From the NCBI RefSeq assembly GCF_937425535.1, contig NZ_OW485601.1, positions 6,059,501 through 6,123,500 of the forward strand: 64,000 nucleotides of DNA, written 5' to 3'. Source of the DNA: Rhodovastum atsumiense (GTDB taxonomy: Bacteria > Pseudomonadota > Alphaproteobacteria > Acetobacterales > Acetobacteraceae). Shown piece by piece: positions 1,580 to 8,541 of the stretch (the first letter of the stretch is position 1; each line of letters begins with the position of its first letter). A model generated the notes under the pieces. The model was not told where the DNA came from, searched no databases, and was given only the letters and a program-made list of their open reading frames with translations. The position numbers and the translations under genes are program-made.

Positions 1580-1855
1580 CGGTGAAAGATCGGATGTTGC
1601 AACGCAGCAAGCAAGTGTGACCCCATCTTATGCTGGAGGCCCGGCCATGTGCCGGCGCGAAGGCTCGCGGGGCGGCGATCCCGCGGCCGGGATATGCCGA
1701 CGGCAGGATATTCTTCTCATCGTATGCAGATGACGTCTTCGTGACGTTGCCTTGCCTTGTCTTCCCGCCTCCGGGCGCCGGCGGAAGGATGCGCGGGGTT
1801 GTGCATGGCCCCGCGCGCGCCCCAGGATGGATGCGGGTGAAACGGAGAGACGCGC

Positions 1856-3283
1856 ATGGTCGAGCTGATTTTGCGCAGCGATAGCGTGGTCACGCCGGAT
1901 GGCGTGGATGCCTGTGACATTGCCATCGCCGCCGGACGCATCCTGTGTGTCGCCCCATTCGGCAGCCTCGACGGCACGTCCTCCGCCCGCCTGATCGACC
2001 TGACCGGCCGCATCGTCATGCCCGGCGGCATCGACCCGCACGTCAATTGCGACTGGCCGATGCCGATGGCGGATGGCCCGCTGCGGCGCAGCCAGCCCGC
2101 GAGCGTGGTCAGCCGGGCAGCGGTGTACGGCGGCACCACCACGCTGATCGATTGCGTCCGCCTGACCGAAGGCAGCGCCGTCAGCGACGCCATCGGCCGC
2201 CGACAGGAACGCTGGGATGGCGCCTGCCACACCGACTACGCCTTTCACCTGCTGGTGGAAGGCAGCGCCTCGCCCCCCCTGCTCGAACAGCTCGGCGAGG
2301 CGCTGCGGGCCGGCCATGCCTCGGTGAAGGTCTTCACCACCGACATCACGCCTAGCCGGCGCGGGCGCAAGGTCGACCTCGGCAGCATCTGGGAGCTGTT
2401 CCAGGTGGTCGCCGCCAACAAGGGCCTGATGGTCGTGCATGCCGAGGACGACGACATCGTCATGCACATGTATGAAAAGCTGCTGCAGGAAGGCCGCGTC
2501 GGCTTCGAGAACATGGCCGAGGTGCATAACGGCCTCTCCGAGGACCTGGCGTTCCGGCGGCTGATCCGGCTGGCCGAATGCGTGCCGGGGACGGCGCTGT
2601 ACCTGGTGAACGTCAGCGCCGCCACCGGGGTCGCGGCGATCCGCGAGGCACGCTCCAAGGGCCTGGCGATCTATGGCGAGAGCCTGCCGCACTACCTGCT
2701 GTTCACCAGCGAGGATTACCGCAAGCGCAACGGCCAGTTGCTGCACACCTTTCCCTCGCTGAAGTCCGAGAAGGACCAGGCGGCGCTGTGGGCCGGCACG
2801 CTGGACGGCAGCATCACCTGCATCGCCACCGACGAGATCTGCTGCACCCTGGCCGAGAAGATGCAGGGCACGCGCATCGATGACCTCGCCGGCGGCCATG
2901 TCGGCGTCGAGCCCCGGCTGGCACTGATGTACACCGAGATGGTCGGGCGGCGCGGCTACACGCTGCGGCGCTTCGTCGACCTGGTTTCCACCAATGCCGC
3001 GCGGGTGATGGGGCTCTATCCCCGCAAGGGCGCGATCGCCGAAGGCGCGGACGCGGATATCTGCGTGCTCGACCCGACGCGCCGGCGCGCCATCCGCAGC
3101 GAGGACCTGCACGAGGCCGACCACACCGCCTGGCATGGCTGGGAAGCGCAGGCCTGGCCCTGCCTGACCATCCTGCGCGGCAAGGTGGTCATGCAGGAGG
3201 GCGAACTGACCGGCGACCTCACCGACGGCACCTGGATCCCGCGCCGCATCCCCGAGGACATCATCGCCGCGCCGCAGCTCTGA
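1856..3283 (+). CDS. Dihydropyrimidinase/hydantoinase-like amidohydrolase with altered metal site
   Basis: The 475-residue protein follows a GGAGA ribosome-binding site and matches the cyclic-amide hydrolase fold: PGGIDPHVN at 57-64, SVKVF at 156-160 (K158, the position of the carboxylated lysine), VVHAED at 193-198 (H195) and IATDE at 323-327 (D326). In D-hydantoinase and dihydropyrimidinase the first motif is HxH and the fourth metal ligand is His. Here these positions are N64 and N252 (LYLVNVSA). Family members hydrolyse dihydropyrimidines, hydantoins or dihydroorotate in the cytoplasm; the two His-to-Asn changes make ordinary di-zinc chemistry uncertain. The stop lies 7 bases from the convergent GH65 gene. 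Confidence 0.8.
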   Translation: MVELILRSDSVVTPDGVDACDIAIAAGRILCVAPFGSLDGTSSARLIDLTGRIVMPGGIDPHVNCDWPMPMADGPLRRSQPASVVSRAAVYGGTTTLIDCVRLTEGSAVSDAIGRRQERWDGACHTDYAFHLLVEGSASPPLLEQLGEALRAGHASVKVFTTDITPSRRGRKVDLGSIWELFQVVAANKGLMVVHAEDDDIVMHMYEKLLQEGRVGFENMAEVHNGLSEDLAFRRLIRLAECVPGTALYLVNVSAATGVAAIREARSKGLAIYGESLPHYLLFTSEDYRKRNGQLLHTFPSLKSEKDQAALWAGTLDGSITCIATDEICCTLAEKMQGTRIDDLAGGHVGVEPRLALMYTEMVGRRGYTLRRFVDLVSTNAARVMGLYPRKGAIAEGADADICVLDPTRRRAIRSEDLHEADHTAWHGWEAQAWPCLTILRGKVVMQEGELTGDLTDGTWIPRRIPEDIIAAPQL

Positions 3284-3290
3284 CGCCGGG

Positions 3291-5582
3291 TCAGCCCAAC
3301 GCGATCCGCACCGTCTCCCCCGGCGGGATCTCGTGGGCGACCCCGCGGACCAGGATCGGCACCTGCTCGCCTGCCTCCAGCGTCGCGGTCAGGGCGTCCG
3401 GCTCGATCCGCACCCGGATCCGCCGCCCGCGCCAGTGCACGCCGAAGCCCAGGCCCTGCCAGTCCCGCGGCAGGTGCGGATCGAAGGCCGGCGCCTCGCC
3501 GCGCAGCGACAGCCCGGCAAAGCCGAAGATCGCCGTCTGCCACAGCCCACCCAGCGCGGCGATGTGCACGCCGCCGGCGCTGCCCGCCGCCTTGTCCTCC
3601 AGGTCGATCGCCGCGGTCGCCCGGAAGTAGCGCAGCGCCATGTCCACATCGCCCATCCGTGCCGCCACCACCGCGTGCATGGACCGGCTGAGCGAGCTGT
3701 CATGGCCGCAGCGCGGCTCGTAGTAGCGGAAATTGGCGAGCTTGGTGCGCGCGTCGAAGGCGTCGGGCAGCAGGGCCAGCAACGCCACCACGTCGGCCTG
3801 CTTGATCACCTGCGAACGCTTCGTCCGCTCCCGCCCGAGCAGCACGTCCATCGCCGCGGTGCGGCCGGCATACTGGGCGAGATCGACTTCCTCCAACTGG
3901 AAGAAGCCGGCGAACTGCTCGATCAGGTCGACGCCGGGAAGCTGCCCGGTCACCAGCGTGTCCGCCGCCTCGCGCCAGGAGGCGAACTCCGCGTCATCGA
4001 GGCCGAGCCGGCCGGCCAGCTCCGCCCAGCGCGCCGGCCAGCGCTCGCGCAGCAGCGCCGCGAGGTCGAGCGCGGTGCGGATGTTCCACTGCGCCATGAT
4101 GTTCGTGTAGGCGTTGTCGTCGATGGTCTCGTGGAACTCGTCGGGGCCGATGACGCCGCGGATATGGCGCCGCCCGTCCGCCTCCTTCACCCCGCGGCTG
4201 GCCCAGAACCGGGCCGTTTCCAGCACGATTTCCGCGCCGGCTTCCAGCAGGAACCCGTCATCGCCGCTCGCCCGCCAGTACTGCATCACCGCGTAGGCAA
4301 CATCGGCGCTGATGTGCTGTTCCTCGCGGCCACAGAGGACGCGGATGATCTGGCCATCCGGGCCGATGATCTCCTCGGGCGTGGTTTCCTCGCCGGTATC
4401 GGCCGATTCCCATGCGTAGAGCGCGCCACGCCAGCCCATCCGGACCGCCTTCGCCCGCGCGCCGCCAAGCGTGTGATAGCGGTACATCAGCAGCGCCCGC
4501 GCCGCCTCGGGCCAGGTCACGATGTAGAACGGCACCAGATAGATCTCGGTGTCCCAGAAGACATGGCCGAGATAGGAATCCCCGGTCAGCGCCCGCGCGC
4601 CGATGGAGACGCGCTCGTCCGCGGGATTGGCCGAGCCATTCAGGTGGTAGATGGCGAAGCGCAGCGCGCGGAGCGCCGCGTCATCGCCCTCCACCATGAT
4701 GTCGCTGCACTCCCAGCGCGTCGCCCAGGCCGCCTCGTGCGCCGCCACCACGCCGCGCCAGCCGATCGCGCGGTTCCGCTCCAGCGCTTCCCGCGCCATC
4801 CGGCCGGCCCCGCCATCCGGGCTGTCGCCCCGCGACACGGCGGCCAACCGGTCCAGCGCCACCACCTGCCCGGCCACCGATTGCCAGTTCCACGACCAGC
4901 GCAGATGGTCGCGCAGCGACGGCATCACCTCCCGCCCGTCCAGATGCAGCGACGCGGCCCCGGTCATCGCCAGCGTCTTGCCCGACTGCCAGGTACGCCA
5001 GATACCCAGGTCCGGCTCCACCAGCACCGGATCGAGCCCGAGCCCCGCCCCTTCGAACGAAGCCTCTAGCCGCACGTCCAGGTTGTCCCGGTCGAGTTCG
5101 AGGCGCAGCAACTGCAGCCCGACGGCGCGGTCCGCCAGCGACACCAGGCGTAGGGTGCGCACCCACACGTCCACGCCCCGGCTGTTGCGCTGGTGCCATT
5201 CGGTCAGCATCACGCCACGATTCATGTCCAGCTTGCGCTCGTGCGCGAGCAGATGGCCCTCGCGCAGCAGCAGCGGCGCGCCGTTGACCAGGATGCGCAC
5301 GCGCAGCCAGTCGGCCGCCGGCACCAGCGCAGGCACCGGCGGGTCGGTGTCGGGCGTGTCGAACAGGCCGGCGACATAGGTGCGCGGCCAGGACGACCAG
5401 GTCAGCGTGTGCAGCCAGGACACCCAGGTCGGGCCGCGACTGACCGCCCGCGCGCCGCGCACCCCCAGGAAGCCGTTGGCGATGGTGAAACGCGATTCGA
5501 TGCCGCTCTCGCGCAAGGGGTTGTGGCCCTGCTCCTCCAGGATCCAGAGCGGGTCGGCAGTCGGTTCCAGCACGCGCTCCAT
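3291..5582 (-). CDS. Glycoside hydrolase family 65 disaccharide phosphorylase
   Basis: The 763-residue protein has GH65 architecture: an N-terminal beta-sandwich (GIESRFTIANGFLGVRG), a helical linker, an (alpha/alpha)6 catalytic barrel (GHVFWDTEIYLVPF) and a C-terminal beta-domain. The general acid Glu lies in GVIGPDEFHE and the phosphate-binding loop resembles VIKQADVV. GH65 enzymes phosphorolyse maltose, trehalose, kojibiose or nigerose to beta-glucose 1-phosphate plus glucose. Specificity cannot be assigned, but trehalose or trehalose 6-phosphate is plausible because otsA and otsB are next door. It is 12 bases downstream of the HAD gene and probably in the same transcript. Confidence 0.88.
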   Translation of the reverse strand: MERVLEPTADPLWILEEQGHNPLRESGIESRFTIANGFLGVRGARAVSRGPTWVSWLHTLTWSSWPRTYVAGLFDTPDTDPPVPALVPAADWLRVRILVNGAPLLLREGHLLAHERKLDMNRGVMLTEWHQRNSRGVDVWVRTLRLVSLADRAVGLQLLRLELDRDNLDVRLEASFEGAGLGLDPVLVEPDLGIWRTWQSGKTLAMTGAASLHLDGREVMPSLRDHLRWSWNWQSVAGQVVALDRLAAVSRGDSPDGGAGRMAREALERNRAIGWRGVVAAHEAAWATRWECSDIMVEGDDAALRALRFAIYHLNGSANPADERVSIGARALTGDSYLGHVFWDTEIYLVPFYIVTWPEAARALLMYRYHTLGGARAKAVRMGWRGALYAWESADTGEETTPEEIIGPDGQIIRVLCGREEQHISADVAYAVMQYWRASGDDGFLLEAGAEIVLETARFWASRGVKEADGRRHIRGVIGPDEFHETIDDNAYTNIMAQWNIRTALDLAALLRERWPARWAELAGRLGLDDAEFASWREAADTLVTGQLPGVDLIEQFAGFFQLEEVDLAQYAGRTAAMDVLLGRERTKRSQVIKQADVVALLALLPDAFDARTKLANFRYYEPRCGHDSSLSRSMHAVVAARMGDVDMALRYFRATAAIDLEDKAAGSAGGVHIAALGGLWQTAIFGFAGLSLRGEAPAFDPHLPRDWQGLGFGVHWRGRRIRVRIEPDALTATLEAGEQVPILVRGVAHEIPPGETVRIALG

Positions 5583-5594
5583 CGTCGCACTCCC

Positions 5595-6323
5595 TTACTT
5601 CGGCCGGCTGCGGAGGACACCCTCCGCCAGCGCATCCACCGCGACTTCGTCCAGGCTGGTCACCACCAGATCGGCCCCCGCCGCCTGCAGCAGCGCCGCA
5701 TCGTCGAGCCGGGCCACGCCGAGCCCCGCCATGCTACCCGCCCGCGCGGCGGCAATGCCGGCGGGCGCATCCTCGACCACGACGCACCGCTCCGGCGCGA
5801 TGCCGAGCGCCGCGGCCGCCATCAGGAAGATCTCCGGATCGGGCTTGCCGTGGCGGAGCTCCCGGTCGCACACATTGGCGTCGAAGGCATCCACCAGGGT
5901 CGGCCCCGGCTCGAAGGGGATCAGCCGCATCATCCGGGTCGCGTTCTTCGACGAGGACGCCACCGCGACGCGCACCCCCCGCGCCCGGATCGCGGCCAGG
6001 AAGCGCAGCGCATCGGGAAAGGCGTCGAAGCTGCGCGCCTCGATCAACTCCTCGATGCGGCGCTGCTTGCGCGCGGCATAGTCCTCGGCCGCGCGGGCGG
6101 CGTCGGGGACGCCAAGCCGCTCCAGCGCCGCCCGTGCCCCGTCGAGTCGCGGCTTGCCGGCGACATGGGCCTGGTAGAACTCCGTGGTGAAGGCGGCGGG
6201 ATCGGTCAGGCCCGTCAGCGCCTCGCGCCAGGCGCGCTCATGCGGCGAGGCCACCAGGACACCGTCGACGTCGAAGATGGCGGCAAGGAGCTGGGAACGG
6301 TGGGAAGCGGATTGGGCTGGCAT
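5595..6323 (-). CDS. HAD hydrolase, beta-phosphoglucomutase-like
   Basis: The 242-residue protein has the HAD motifs in order: motif I DVDGVL near residue 18 (nucleophile Asp and acid/base Asp), motif II VASSSKN, motif III Lys in HGKPDPEIF, and motif IV VVVEDAPAG. This arrangement, with a helical cap, is that of beta-phosphoglucomutase. That enzyme converts beta-glucose 1-phosphate from a GH65 phosphorylase into glucose 6-phosphate. The immediately following GH65 gene makes this the likely role, although some relatives are simple sugar phosphatases. A perfect hairpin (6405-6445) separates it from otsA upstream. Confidence 0.82.
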   Translation of the reverse strand: MPAQSASHRSQLLAAIFDVDGVLVASPHERAWREALTGLTDPAAFTTEFYQAHVAGKPRLDGARAALERLGVPDAARAAEDYAARKQRRIEELIEARSFDAFPDALRFLAAIRARGVRVAVASSSKNATRMMRLIPFEPGPTLVDAFDANVCDRELRHGKPDPEIFLMAAAALGIAPERCVVVEDAPAGIAAARAGSMAGLGVARLDDAALLQAAGADLVVTSLDEVAVDALAEGVLRSRPK

Positions 6324-6404
6324 GCGGCAATTCCACCTCTGCTTGCATGTCAGATCCGGGACCGCGTGACTCGGCGGCCGGCCCCGGATGAGGCCGGCAG
6401 ACTA

Positions 6405-6445
6405 GCCGGGAAGAAACGCCGCCGGCCAGCGCGTTTCTTCCCGGC
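6405..6445 (-). terminator. Perfect hairpin between otsA and the HAD gene
   Basis: A 15-base inverted repeat (GCCGGGAAGAAACGC at 6405-6419 and its exact complement at 6431-6445) encloses an 11-base loop. It lies 42 bases past the otsA stop and 81 bases before the HAD start. No T-run follows on either strand, so it may act as a leaky terminator, an attenuator or a 3'-end stabiliser that sets different levels for trehalose synthesis and breakdown. Confidence 0.6.
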
Positions 6446-6487
6446 CGGGGAATTCCCCTGAAAGAAGGCTTCCCGAGCCTCGCGCCC

Positions 6488-7831
6488 TCACGCCGCGCGC
6501 GCGGTGGTCCCTTCCAGCTCGGCCATGAAGCCACGCGCCCAGTCCGCCGAGGTGTGGCGGTTCACCGCCGTCCACATCTGCCGCCAGCGCGTCCGCCGTT
6601 CCTCCGGCGGCGCGGACAGCGCCGCGTGCAAGGCTTCCGCCGTCTCGTCGGGATCGTGCGGGTTGATCACCAGCGCCCCTTCCATCGCCTCGGCAGCGCC
6701 GGCGAAGCGCGAGAGCACCAGCATCCCGGGCGCTTCCGGGTTCTGCGCGGCCACGTATTCCTTGGCCACCAGGTTCATCCCGTCGCGCAGCGGCGTCACC
6801 AGCCCGACTGAGGCCATCCGGTAGAAGCCGGCCAGCACGTCCCGCCGCACCGCCTGGGTCAGGTAGCGCAACGGCGTCCAGTCGAACTCGGCGTGCTCAC
6901 CGTTGATCCGCCCGGTCAGTTCGTCCAGCTCGCGCCGGAGGCTGCGATACTGCGCCACGTCGCCGCGCGAGACCGGCGCCACCTGCAGGAAGGTCACCCG
7001 GTTGCGATGCTCGGGAAAGCGGCGCAGCAGCCGCGCGAAGCCACGGAACCGCTGCGGCAGCCCCTTGGAGTAGTCCAGGCGGTCGACCCCCAGGATCAGT
7101 GCGCGGCCGCCCAGCGACTGGATCAGGCGCCGCACCTCCGTGCCGCCCTCGGCCTGGCGGGCCGCCGCGGCGAAGCTCTCGGGGTCGATGCCGATGGGAA
7201 AGGACCGTGCCTTCGGCGGCAGCCCCTGCGCCTGCAGCACCTCGTTCATGTGCCGGGCGTCTTCCTCGGTCTGGGTCCCGAGCACGTCGTAGCAGGCGAG
7301 CTCGCGCGCCATCTCGTCGCCCTGCGGCAACGCCGCCCACACCGCGGCCGGCGGGAACGGCACGTGCAGGAAGAAGCCGATGCGGGCCTGCACCCCGGCC
7401 TCGCGCAACGCCGCCCCCATCGGGATCAGGTGATAATCGTGCACCCAGATCAAGTCGTTCGGCCGCAGCAGCGGCACCAACGCGGCGGCGAAAGCGTGGT
7501 TGACGCGCTGATAGGCGCCCAGGTCCTCGCGCCGGAACTCCGCCAGAGCCACCTGGTAGTGCAGCAACGGCCACAGCATGCCGTTGGAGAAACCGCGATA
7601 ATATCCCTCGTAATCGCCCTGCGCGAGATCGAGGGTGGCGTAGGTGATGCGGCCGCTGCGATGGATGCGCGGCTGCGTCGCCGCCTGCGCCCCGGCCGTG
7701 CCCGACCAGCCGAACCATAGGGTTTCATGGCTGGAGACCGCCTCGCGCAATGCCACTGCAAGCCCCCCCGCCGCCCCCGACCGCTCACGGGGCGGCGGCA
7801 CGCGATTGGAGACCAGGACCAGCCGGCTCAC
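6488..7831 (-). CDS. otsA: Trehalose-6-phosphate synthase
   Basis: The 447-residue protein shows the GT20 motifs in order: SRLVLVSNRVPPP at the start, WVHDYHLIPMG, FFLHVPFPP, GVDRLDYSKGLPQR and LRDGMNLVAKEYV near the C-terminal donor site. It transfers glucose from UDP-glucose (or another NDP-glucose) to glucose 6-phosphate in the cytoplasm, the first step of the OtsAB trehalose route used against osmotic and desiccation stress. Its start overlaps the otsB stop (ATGA), so the two are translationally coupled. The length is close to that of other bacterial OtsA proteins. Confidence 0.96.
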   Translation of the reverse strand: MSRLVLVSNRVPPPRERSGAAGGLAVALREAVSSHETLWFGWSGTAGAQAATQPRIHRSGRITYATLDLAQGDYEGYYRGFSNGMLWPLLHYQVALAEFRREDLGAYQRVNHAFAAALVPLLRPNDLIWVHDYHLIPMGAALREAGVQARIGFFLHVPFPPAAVWAALPQGDEMARELACYDVLGTQTEEDARHMNEVLQAQGLPPKARSFPIGIDPESFAAAARQAEGGTEVRRLIQSLGGRALILGVDRLDYSKGLPQRFRGFARLLRRFPEHRNRVTFLQVAPVSRGDVAQYRSLRRELDELTGRINGEHAEFDWTPLRYLTQAVRRDVLAGFYRMASVGLVTPLRDGMNLVAKEYVAAQNPEAPGMLVLSRFAGAAEAMEGALVINPHDPDETAEALHAALSAPPEERRTRWRQMWTAVNRHTSADWARGFMAELEGTTARAA

Positions 7832-8541
7832 GAGTGGGCCGCCAGTGCGGCCAGCCAGGCCCGCACGTCGGCCGCATCGCCGAACGCCTCCTGCACGCGC
7901 AGGCCAATGCCGCCCTGCTCGCGGGCGACACGCATGCCATCCTCGTCGGTCACGTCATCGCCGATATAGACCGGCACGCGGCCGGCGAAGGGGGCACGGG
8001 CCATCAGCGCGGCGACGGCGCGGCCCTTGTCGGCGGCACGCGGCTTCACCTCCCAGGCCATGTGCGCCGCCATCACCACGAAATCCGGGTTGGCGTCGCC
8101 GACGATCGACAGCAGCGCCTGGCGCAGCGCCGAGCCGGCCTGCGGCTCCAGGCGGAAATGTAGCACCAGGCCGTGCGCCTTGCGTTCCAGCAACACGCCC
8201 TGGTAGCCGGAGGCAACCCGTTCGGCCTGGGCGATCCAGGGCGCCGGCAGCGCCGGCAACGACTTGCGTTCCAGCGCCTCGCCGGGGGCGTGGCGGATCG
8301 CCGCCCCGTGCTCGCCCGCGATGGCATAGGGCGCATCCCCGAGCAGGTCGTAGACCTGCTCCACCGGCCGCCCGCTCACCACCGCCAGGGCATCATCCAG
8401 CCGTGCCCGCAACCGTACCAATGCAAGGGGCAATTCGACAGGCACCACGACATCCGCGGGCGTCGGCGCGATGTCGAGCAAAGTACCGTCCATATCCAGT
8501 AATAATGCTGCGCGTTCAGGCAGCCTGACAGAAACGTTCAT
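7828..8541 (-). CDS. otsB: Trehalose-6-phosphate phosphatase
   Basis: The 237-residue HAD-type phosphatase carries LLLDMDGTLLDI near residue 14 (nucleophile Asp plus acid/base Asp) and the late motif VYIGDDVTDEDGM, both characteristic of OtsB. It dephosphorylates the product of the adjacent otsA to trehalose. It is the first gene of the leftward trehalose block. A less GC-rich stretch just upstream (around 8542-8560) could hold the promoter, but no clear -35/-10 pair is visible. Confidence 0.95.
   Translation of the reverse strand: MNVSVRLPERAALLLDMDGTLLDIAPTPADVVVPVELPLALVRLRARLDDALAVVSGRPVEQVYDLLGDAPYAIAGEHGAAIRHAPGEALERKSLPALPAPWIAQAERVASGYQGVLLERKAHGLVLHFRLEPQAGSALRQALLSIVGDANPDFVVMAAHMAWEVKPRAADKGRAVAALMARAPFAGRVPVYIGDDVTDEDGMRVAREQGGIGLRVQEAFGDAADVRAWLAALAAHS

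Follow-up and report, generated by a model that had tools for sequence, protein, structure and literature searches.

The D-hydantoinase-like gene at positions 1856..3283 (+ strand) of the window, a stretch of 64,000 nucleotides of Rhodovastum atsumiense DNA, encodes a 475-residue protein in which Asn occupies two of six metal-ligand positions. Judged from its sequence, this protein represents a single-lineage departure from a family of metal-binding, D-hydantoinase-type enzymes and has probably ceased to be the enzyme from which it arose. We consider it a pseudoenzyme candidate: chances are about even that metal-dependent activity was lost in this one lineage while the fold was retained, with a likely non-catalytic role.

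The gene begins with an ATG codon preceded by a plausible ribosome site (GGAGA), and its frame contains neither a stop nor a frameshift. An antisense open frame of 502 codons (1628-3136, − strand) lies opposite; such frames are common in GC-rich DNA. The best solved relative of the protein is a D-hydantoinase (PDB 4tqt; E 3.5e-61, residues 5-464), and similarity to the D-hydantoinase/dihydropyrimidinase group (PDB 4tqt, 1nfg and 1yny; TIGR02033) extends over the full length. The dihydropyrimidinase models PRK13404 and TIGR02033 both match below their cut-offs, the latter with 284.7 bits against a curated threshold of 393.25 bits. We also ran AlphaFold2 with six sequences each for the window protein and the L038 orthologue, but mean pLDDT values of 43.3 and 42.9 were obtained and the models were not used.

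D-hydantoinases coordinate their metals through an HxH motif, a carboxylated Lys, two further His and an Asp. They have His at all of the His positions of this set, whereas the window protein has Asn at two. When aligned with solved D-hydantoinases by phmmer, the protein has N64 (codon AAT, 2045..2047, + strand) where HxH has its second His, and N252 (codon AAC, 2609..2611, + strand) where the later, strand-6 metal His stands; H62, K158, H195 and D326 are retained, which leaves four of the six ligands. This agrees with the first-pass annotation, which had named the same residues and had proposed that the two changed positions serve one metal each. In the related E. coli dihydroorotase, as outlined in PMC3880350, two His and an Asp hold the alpha metal and two His the beta metal, with the carboxylated Lys serving both. 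The beta-site His would correspond by alignment to H195 and N252, and because of this correspondence each metal would be short of one ligand.

These two exchanges are unique to the window protein. Histidine stands at both positions in 120 of the 121 distinct homologue rows aligned, the window protein being the sole exception. All 92 other distinct orthologues of the core set (93 members of at least 46% identity, window included) have His at 64 and 252, as do the rows that this set omits, namely L156 (41% identity), L157 (38%) and every row at or below 32%. A further 13 orthologues (18 loci minus five repeats) carry H252 without exception, and H64 is present in all 12 that reach position 64 (L190 begins at residue 76). 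Codons 64 and 252 are CAT or CAC in each of the 19 nearest relatives compared. The first-pass annotation had proposed conservation in homologues as a check on its claim and had named a single-genome anomaly as evidence against it. Since HxN and N252 are confined to the window protein, they are indeed such an anomaly, but it is an evolved change rather than noise.

The departure extends beyond the metal ligands. Among 104 columns that are invariant in the other 92 core members, the window protein alone deviates at ten (H64N, F100C, M250L, H252N, P271A, H278P, Y299F, T345A, Y423H and P425A). Eight invariant positions besides 64 and 252 are thus broken in this protein alone, and none of the ten changes occurs in any other core orthologue. 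Every other core member deviates alone at three columns at most, and L137, which has a terminal branch of similar length, breaks no invariant column. The other members show 17 sole-deviant changes along a summed terminal branch length of 5.86 units, a rate from which 0.97 would be expected on the window branch (Poisson P 8e-8; this and every other P value in the analysis is post hoc). When columns of at least 95% conservation are counted instead, the window protein breaks 14, and the distant members L146 and L040 break 16 and 14, mostly not as sole deviants.

The ten changes are concentrated at columns occupied by H, Y, F, W or M (7 of 26, versus 3 of 78 other columns; P 0.002, post hoc). All 18 invariant Gly residues are kept, which is not significant (P 0.14). 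Seven of the ten sites fall in active-site segments (Fisher P 0.036), although these segments were drawn after the changes had been seen and the value is therefore not independent.

The window protein is part of a distinct orthologous group, with at least 46% identity over the full length and a place inside a 19-member clade (support 1.0). At E 1e-100, 88 of the 397 genomes in a sample of its own bacterial family carried an orthologue (window genome included), in 34 of 102 genera. An order-level sample gave 78 of 395 genomes, many identical to those of the family sample, and the window genome itself was the only positive among 398 genomes sampled across the phylum. Five orthologues outside the family lie on contigs labelled Gammaproteobacteria (two), Immundisolibacterales (one) and Chloroflexi/Chloroflexota (two). 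The window genome has a single copy of the gene; a second copy that could carry the activity was sought there, and the next homologue is just 32% identical.

The entire group appears to form a subfamily separate from the TIGR02033 D-hydantoinases, because the HxH orthologues L037 and L038 also score below the cut-off (323.8 and 316). The motif around D326 is mostly TDE-I/L-C (positions 325-329) throughout the group and not peculiar to the window protein, whereas classical hydantoinases have TDH or SDH. The loop after K158 differs from classical hydantoinases as well. Because of these two features, the substrate of the group may differ from theirs. Two Bacteroidota homologues of 23 and 22% identity (L041:5501-6796 and L042:8001-9299) read DQVH, with Gln replacing the first His of HxH. 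A literature search by title and abstract, with subscription papers mostly outside its scope, returned no description of this subfamily, of hydantoinase pseudoenzymes or of COG0523 proteins together with hydantoinases.

Gene order further identifies the window gene as a member of this group. A divergent gene for an FAD-dependent oxidoreductase (DAO, PF01266; 458..1579, − strand; 68% over 372 aa) lies upstream in the window and at many orthologous loci, and the gene beyond it (cluster 13), whose product we take from its sequence to be transglutaminase-like, is also common to the window and orthologous loci. Because these neighbours are shared, the window gene is, as read from gene order, a positional orthologue at its ancestral place. 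Neither a sigma-70 promoter nor a terminator pattern was found near the gene, and the window contains no Zur-like inverted repeat.

The downstream side is different. Directly downstream of 63 of 69 orthologues lies a gene for a protein of about 98 amino acids (counted over orthologues of more than 55% identity from genome searches, window excluded, with at least 1000 bases downstream). A gene for a COG0523/CobW-type GTPase (L117:6752-7840 and relatives) adjoins the hydantoinase-like gene at most orthologous loci, following on the same strand in 37 of the 56 orthologues with at least 5000 bases downstream and lying just upstream instead in 10 of 13 outer members. Two representatives of the small family (L079:7690-7992 and relatives) gave no significant Pfam match (best E 0.2), and one gave no match against NCBIfam. 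In the window, only a 7-base gap (3284..3290) separates the stop codon from an unrelated glycoside hydrolase family 65 gene (3291-5582, − strand), and both partner genes are missing within about 9 kb either side. A search of the whole window genome for the small protein returned nothing better than E 0.008, in a match interrupted by stops; COG0523 homologues exist elsewhere in that genome, the best with 53% over part of its length. The absence of partners is not diagnostic, however, because some orthologues with intact His also do without them (6 of 69 for the small gene, 19 of 56 for the downstream GTPase). Four minus-strand genes of a disaccharide-metabolism type (GH65, HAD hydrolase, GT20 and trehalose phosphatase) occupy 3291-8541 of the window.

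In this reading, the ancestor hydrolysed cyclic amides in a metal-dependent manner, as D-hydantoinases do, and its activity was lost in this lineage as H64N removed an alpha-metal ligand and H252N a beta-metal ligand, with F100C, H278P, Y299F, T345A and other changes affecting the probable remainder of the pocket. Like the CRMPs among the relatives of dihydropyrimidinase, the protein might now bind another protein or a small molecule; because the fold appears to be kept, the likeliest present role would be non-catalytic. Two reports are consistent with such a loss: D-hydantoinase reportedly becomes inactive when Ala replaces its metal ligands (PMC7175128), and so do binuclear amidohydrolases when their second site is removed (PMC3880350). 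Among the options that the first-pass annotation had offered, changed function, for example as a non-catalytic protein, is thus the best supported.

It is possible, though doubtful, that the gene is instead in early decay, with the pathway dispensable in this lineage, the partner genes lost and a drifting frame that is open by chance. The terminal branch of the window protein is the longest in the tree (0.333), and NG86 dN/dS between the window gene and nine relatives is 0.26-0.55, compared with 0.19-0.38 for eight pairs among relatives. The small gene and the COG0523 gene are both missing from the locus, and none of the six other genomes searched from the genus yielded an orthologue at that gene's threshold of E 1e-100. 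Furthermore, when 60 random substitutions were simulated, without indels, the frame was still open in 23% of trials. Against decay stand the absence of any stop or frameshift, dN/dS below 1, a GC3 of 0.909 close to the 0.879-0.920 of relatives, the plausible ribosome site and the enrichment of changes at H/Y/F/W/M columns. The earlier view of an intact fold and a gene free of decay therefore holds as far as the open frame and dN/dS below 1 are concerned, and is weakened by the raised dN/dS and by the frequency with which a frame stays open by chance.

The neighbouring DAO gene provides a gauge of rate. Among relatives (24 pairs), mean identity is 0.687 for DAO and 0.816 for the hydantoinase, whereas between the window and ten relatives it is 0.65 and 0.689, respectively. 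The hydantoinase gene in the window is thus evolving faster than expected relative to its DAO neighbour. Because dN/dS is raised, the rate is high relative to DAO, the changes are biased towards H/Y/F/W/M columns and the frame is open, loss of the ancestral activity appears likely, and retention of the protein would come ahead of decay. From these sequence features we infer both that catalysis was lost and that a non-catalytic role was taken up.

A remodelled metal centre, with one or two metals (perhaps other than zinc) still bound by Asn64 and Asn252 and with a changed substrate, seems unlikely, and a still active site of this kind would be less likely than loss of activity. Four of the six ligands (H62, K158, H195 and D326) remain, which counts against loss, and in both cases it is Asn that has replaced His. 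Asn is able to bind metal. Non-canonical yet active amidohydrolase metal sites exist, according to two reports: paralogues of dihydroorotase can be active even though their zinc ligands are not conserved (PMC2770081), and the Aquifex dihydroorotase functions with a beta-site His removed (PMC3880350). Because these enzymes tolerate ligand loss, the sequence leaves room for activity. However, one ligand is lost at both sites and eight further family-invariant positions have changed, which also makes the mono-metal enzyme envisaged in the first-pass annotation less likely. In addition, none of the ten changes occurs in other core orthologues, and the gene for the putative metal chaperone COG0523 is missing from the locus, with homologues elsewhere in the genome. 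With similarly low probability, the double His-to-Asn site may bind the former substrate uncut, as a sensor or carrier, or an Asn-ligated metal for new chemistry, with the accessory genes shed. A sequencing or assembly error is very improbable: the changes are seen in one assembly only, but they affect ten otherwise invariant sites, at least one of them, H278P, needs two base changes (CCG versus CAC/CAT), and about 29% of the encoded residues differ from those of the nearest relatives.

The closest known kind is the CRMPs (dihydropyrimidinase-related proteins), which match the window protein at E about 1e-36 and are likewise relatives of the dihydropyrimidinase fold with lost metal ligands. 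One report describes CRMPs as lacking DHPase activity, and CRMP-4 as having two of six ligands left and the bridging Lys lost (PMC4051505). Unlike CRMP-4, the window protein keeps K158 and three other ligands and so does not have the CRMP ligand pattern; its ligand loss presumably arose independently of theirs. Conserved zinc ligands are also lacking in two other kinds of bacterial cyclic amidohydrolase, the inactive PyrC' of Pseudomonas and the Zur-regulated PyrC paralogues (PMC2770081). Both are dihydroorotases outside the group of the window protein, and activity has been reported for the Zur-regulated kind.

If retained as a non-catalytic protein, the window protein would be a bacterial parallel to the CRMPs, with orthologues that keep the metal site available for comparison. 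The COG0523 GTPase, a putative metallochaperone, and the hydantoinase-like protein are a possible chaperone-client pair, and the frequent placement of this hydantoinase-like subfamily beside a COG0523 GTPase gene would make a link between such GTPases and their client enzymes testable.
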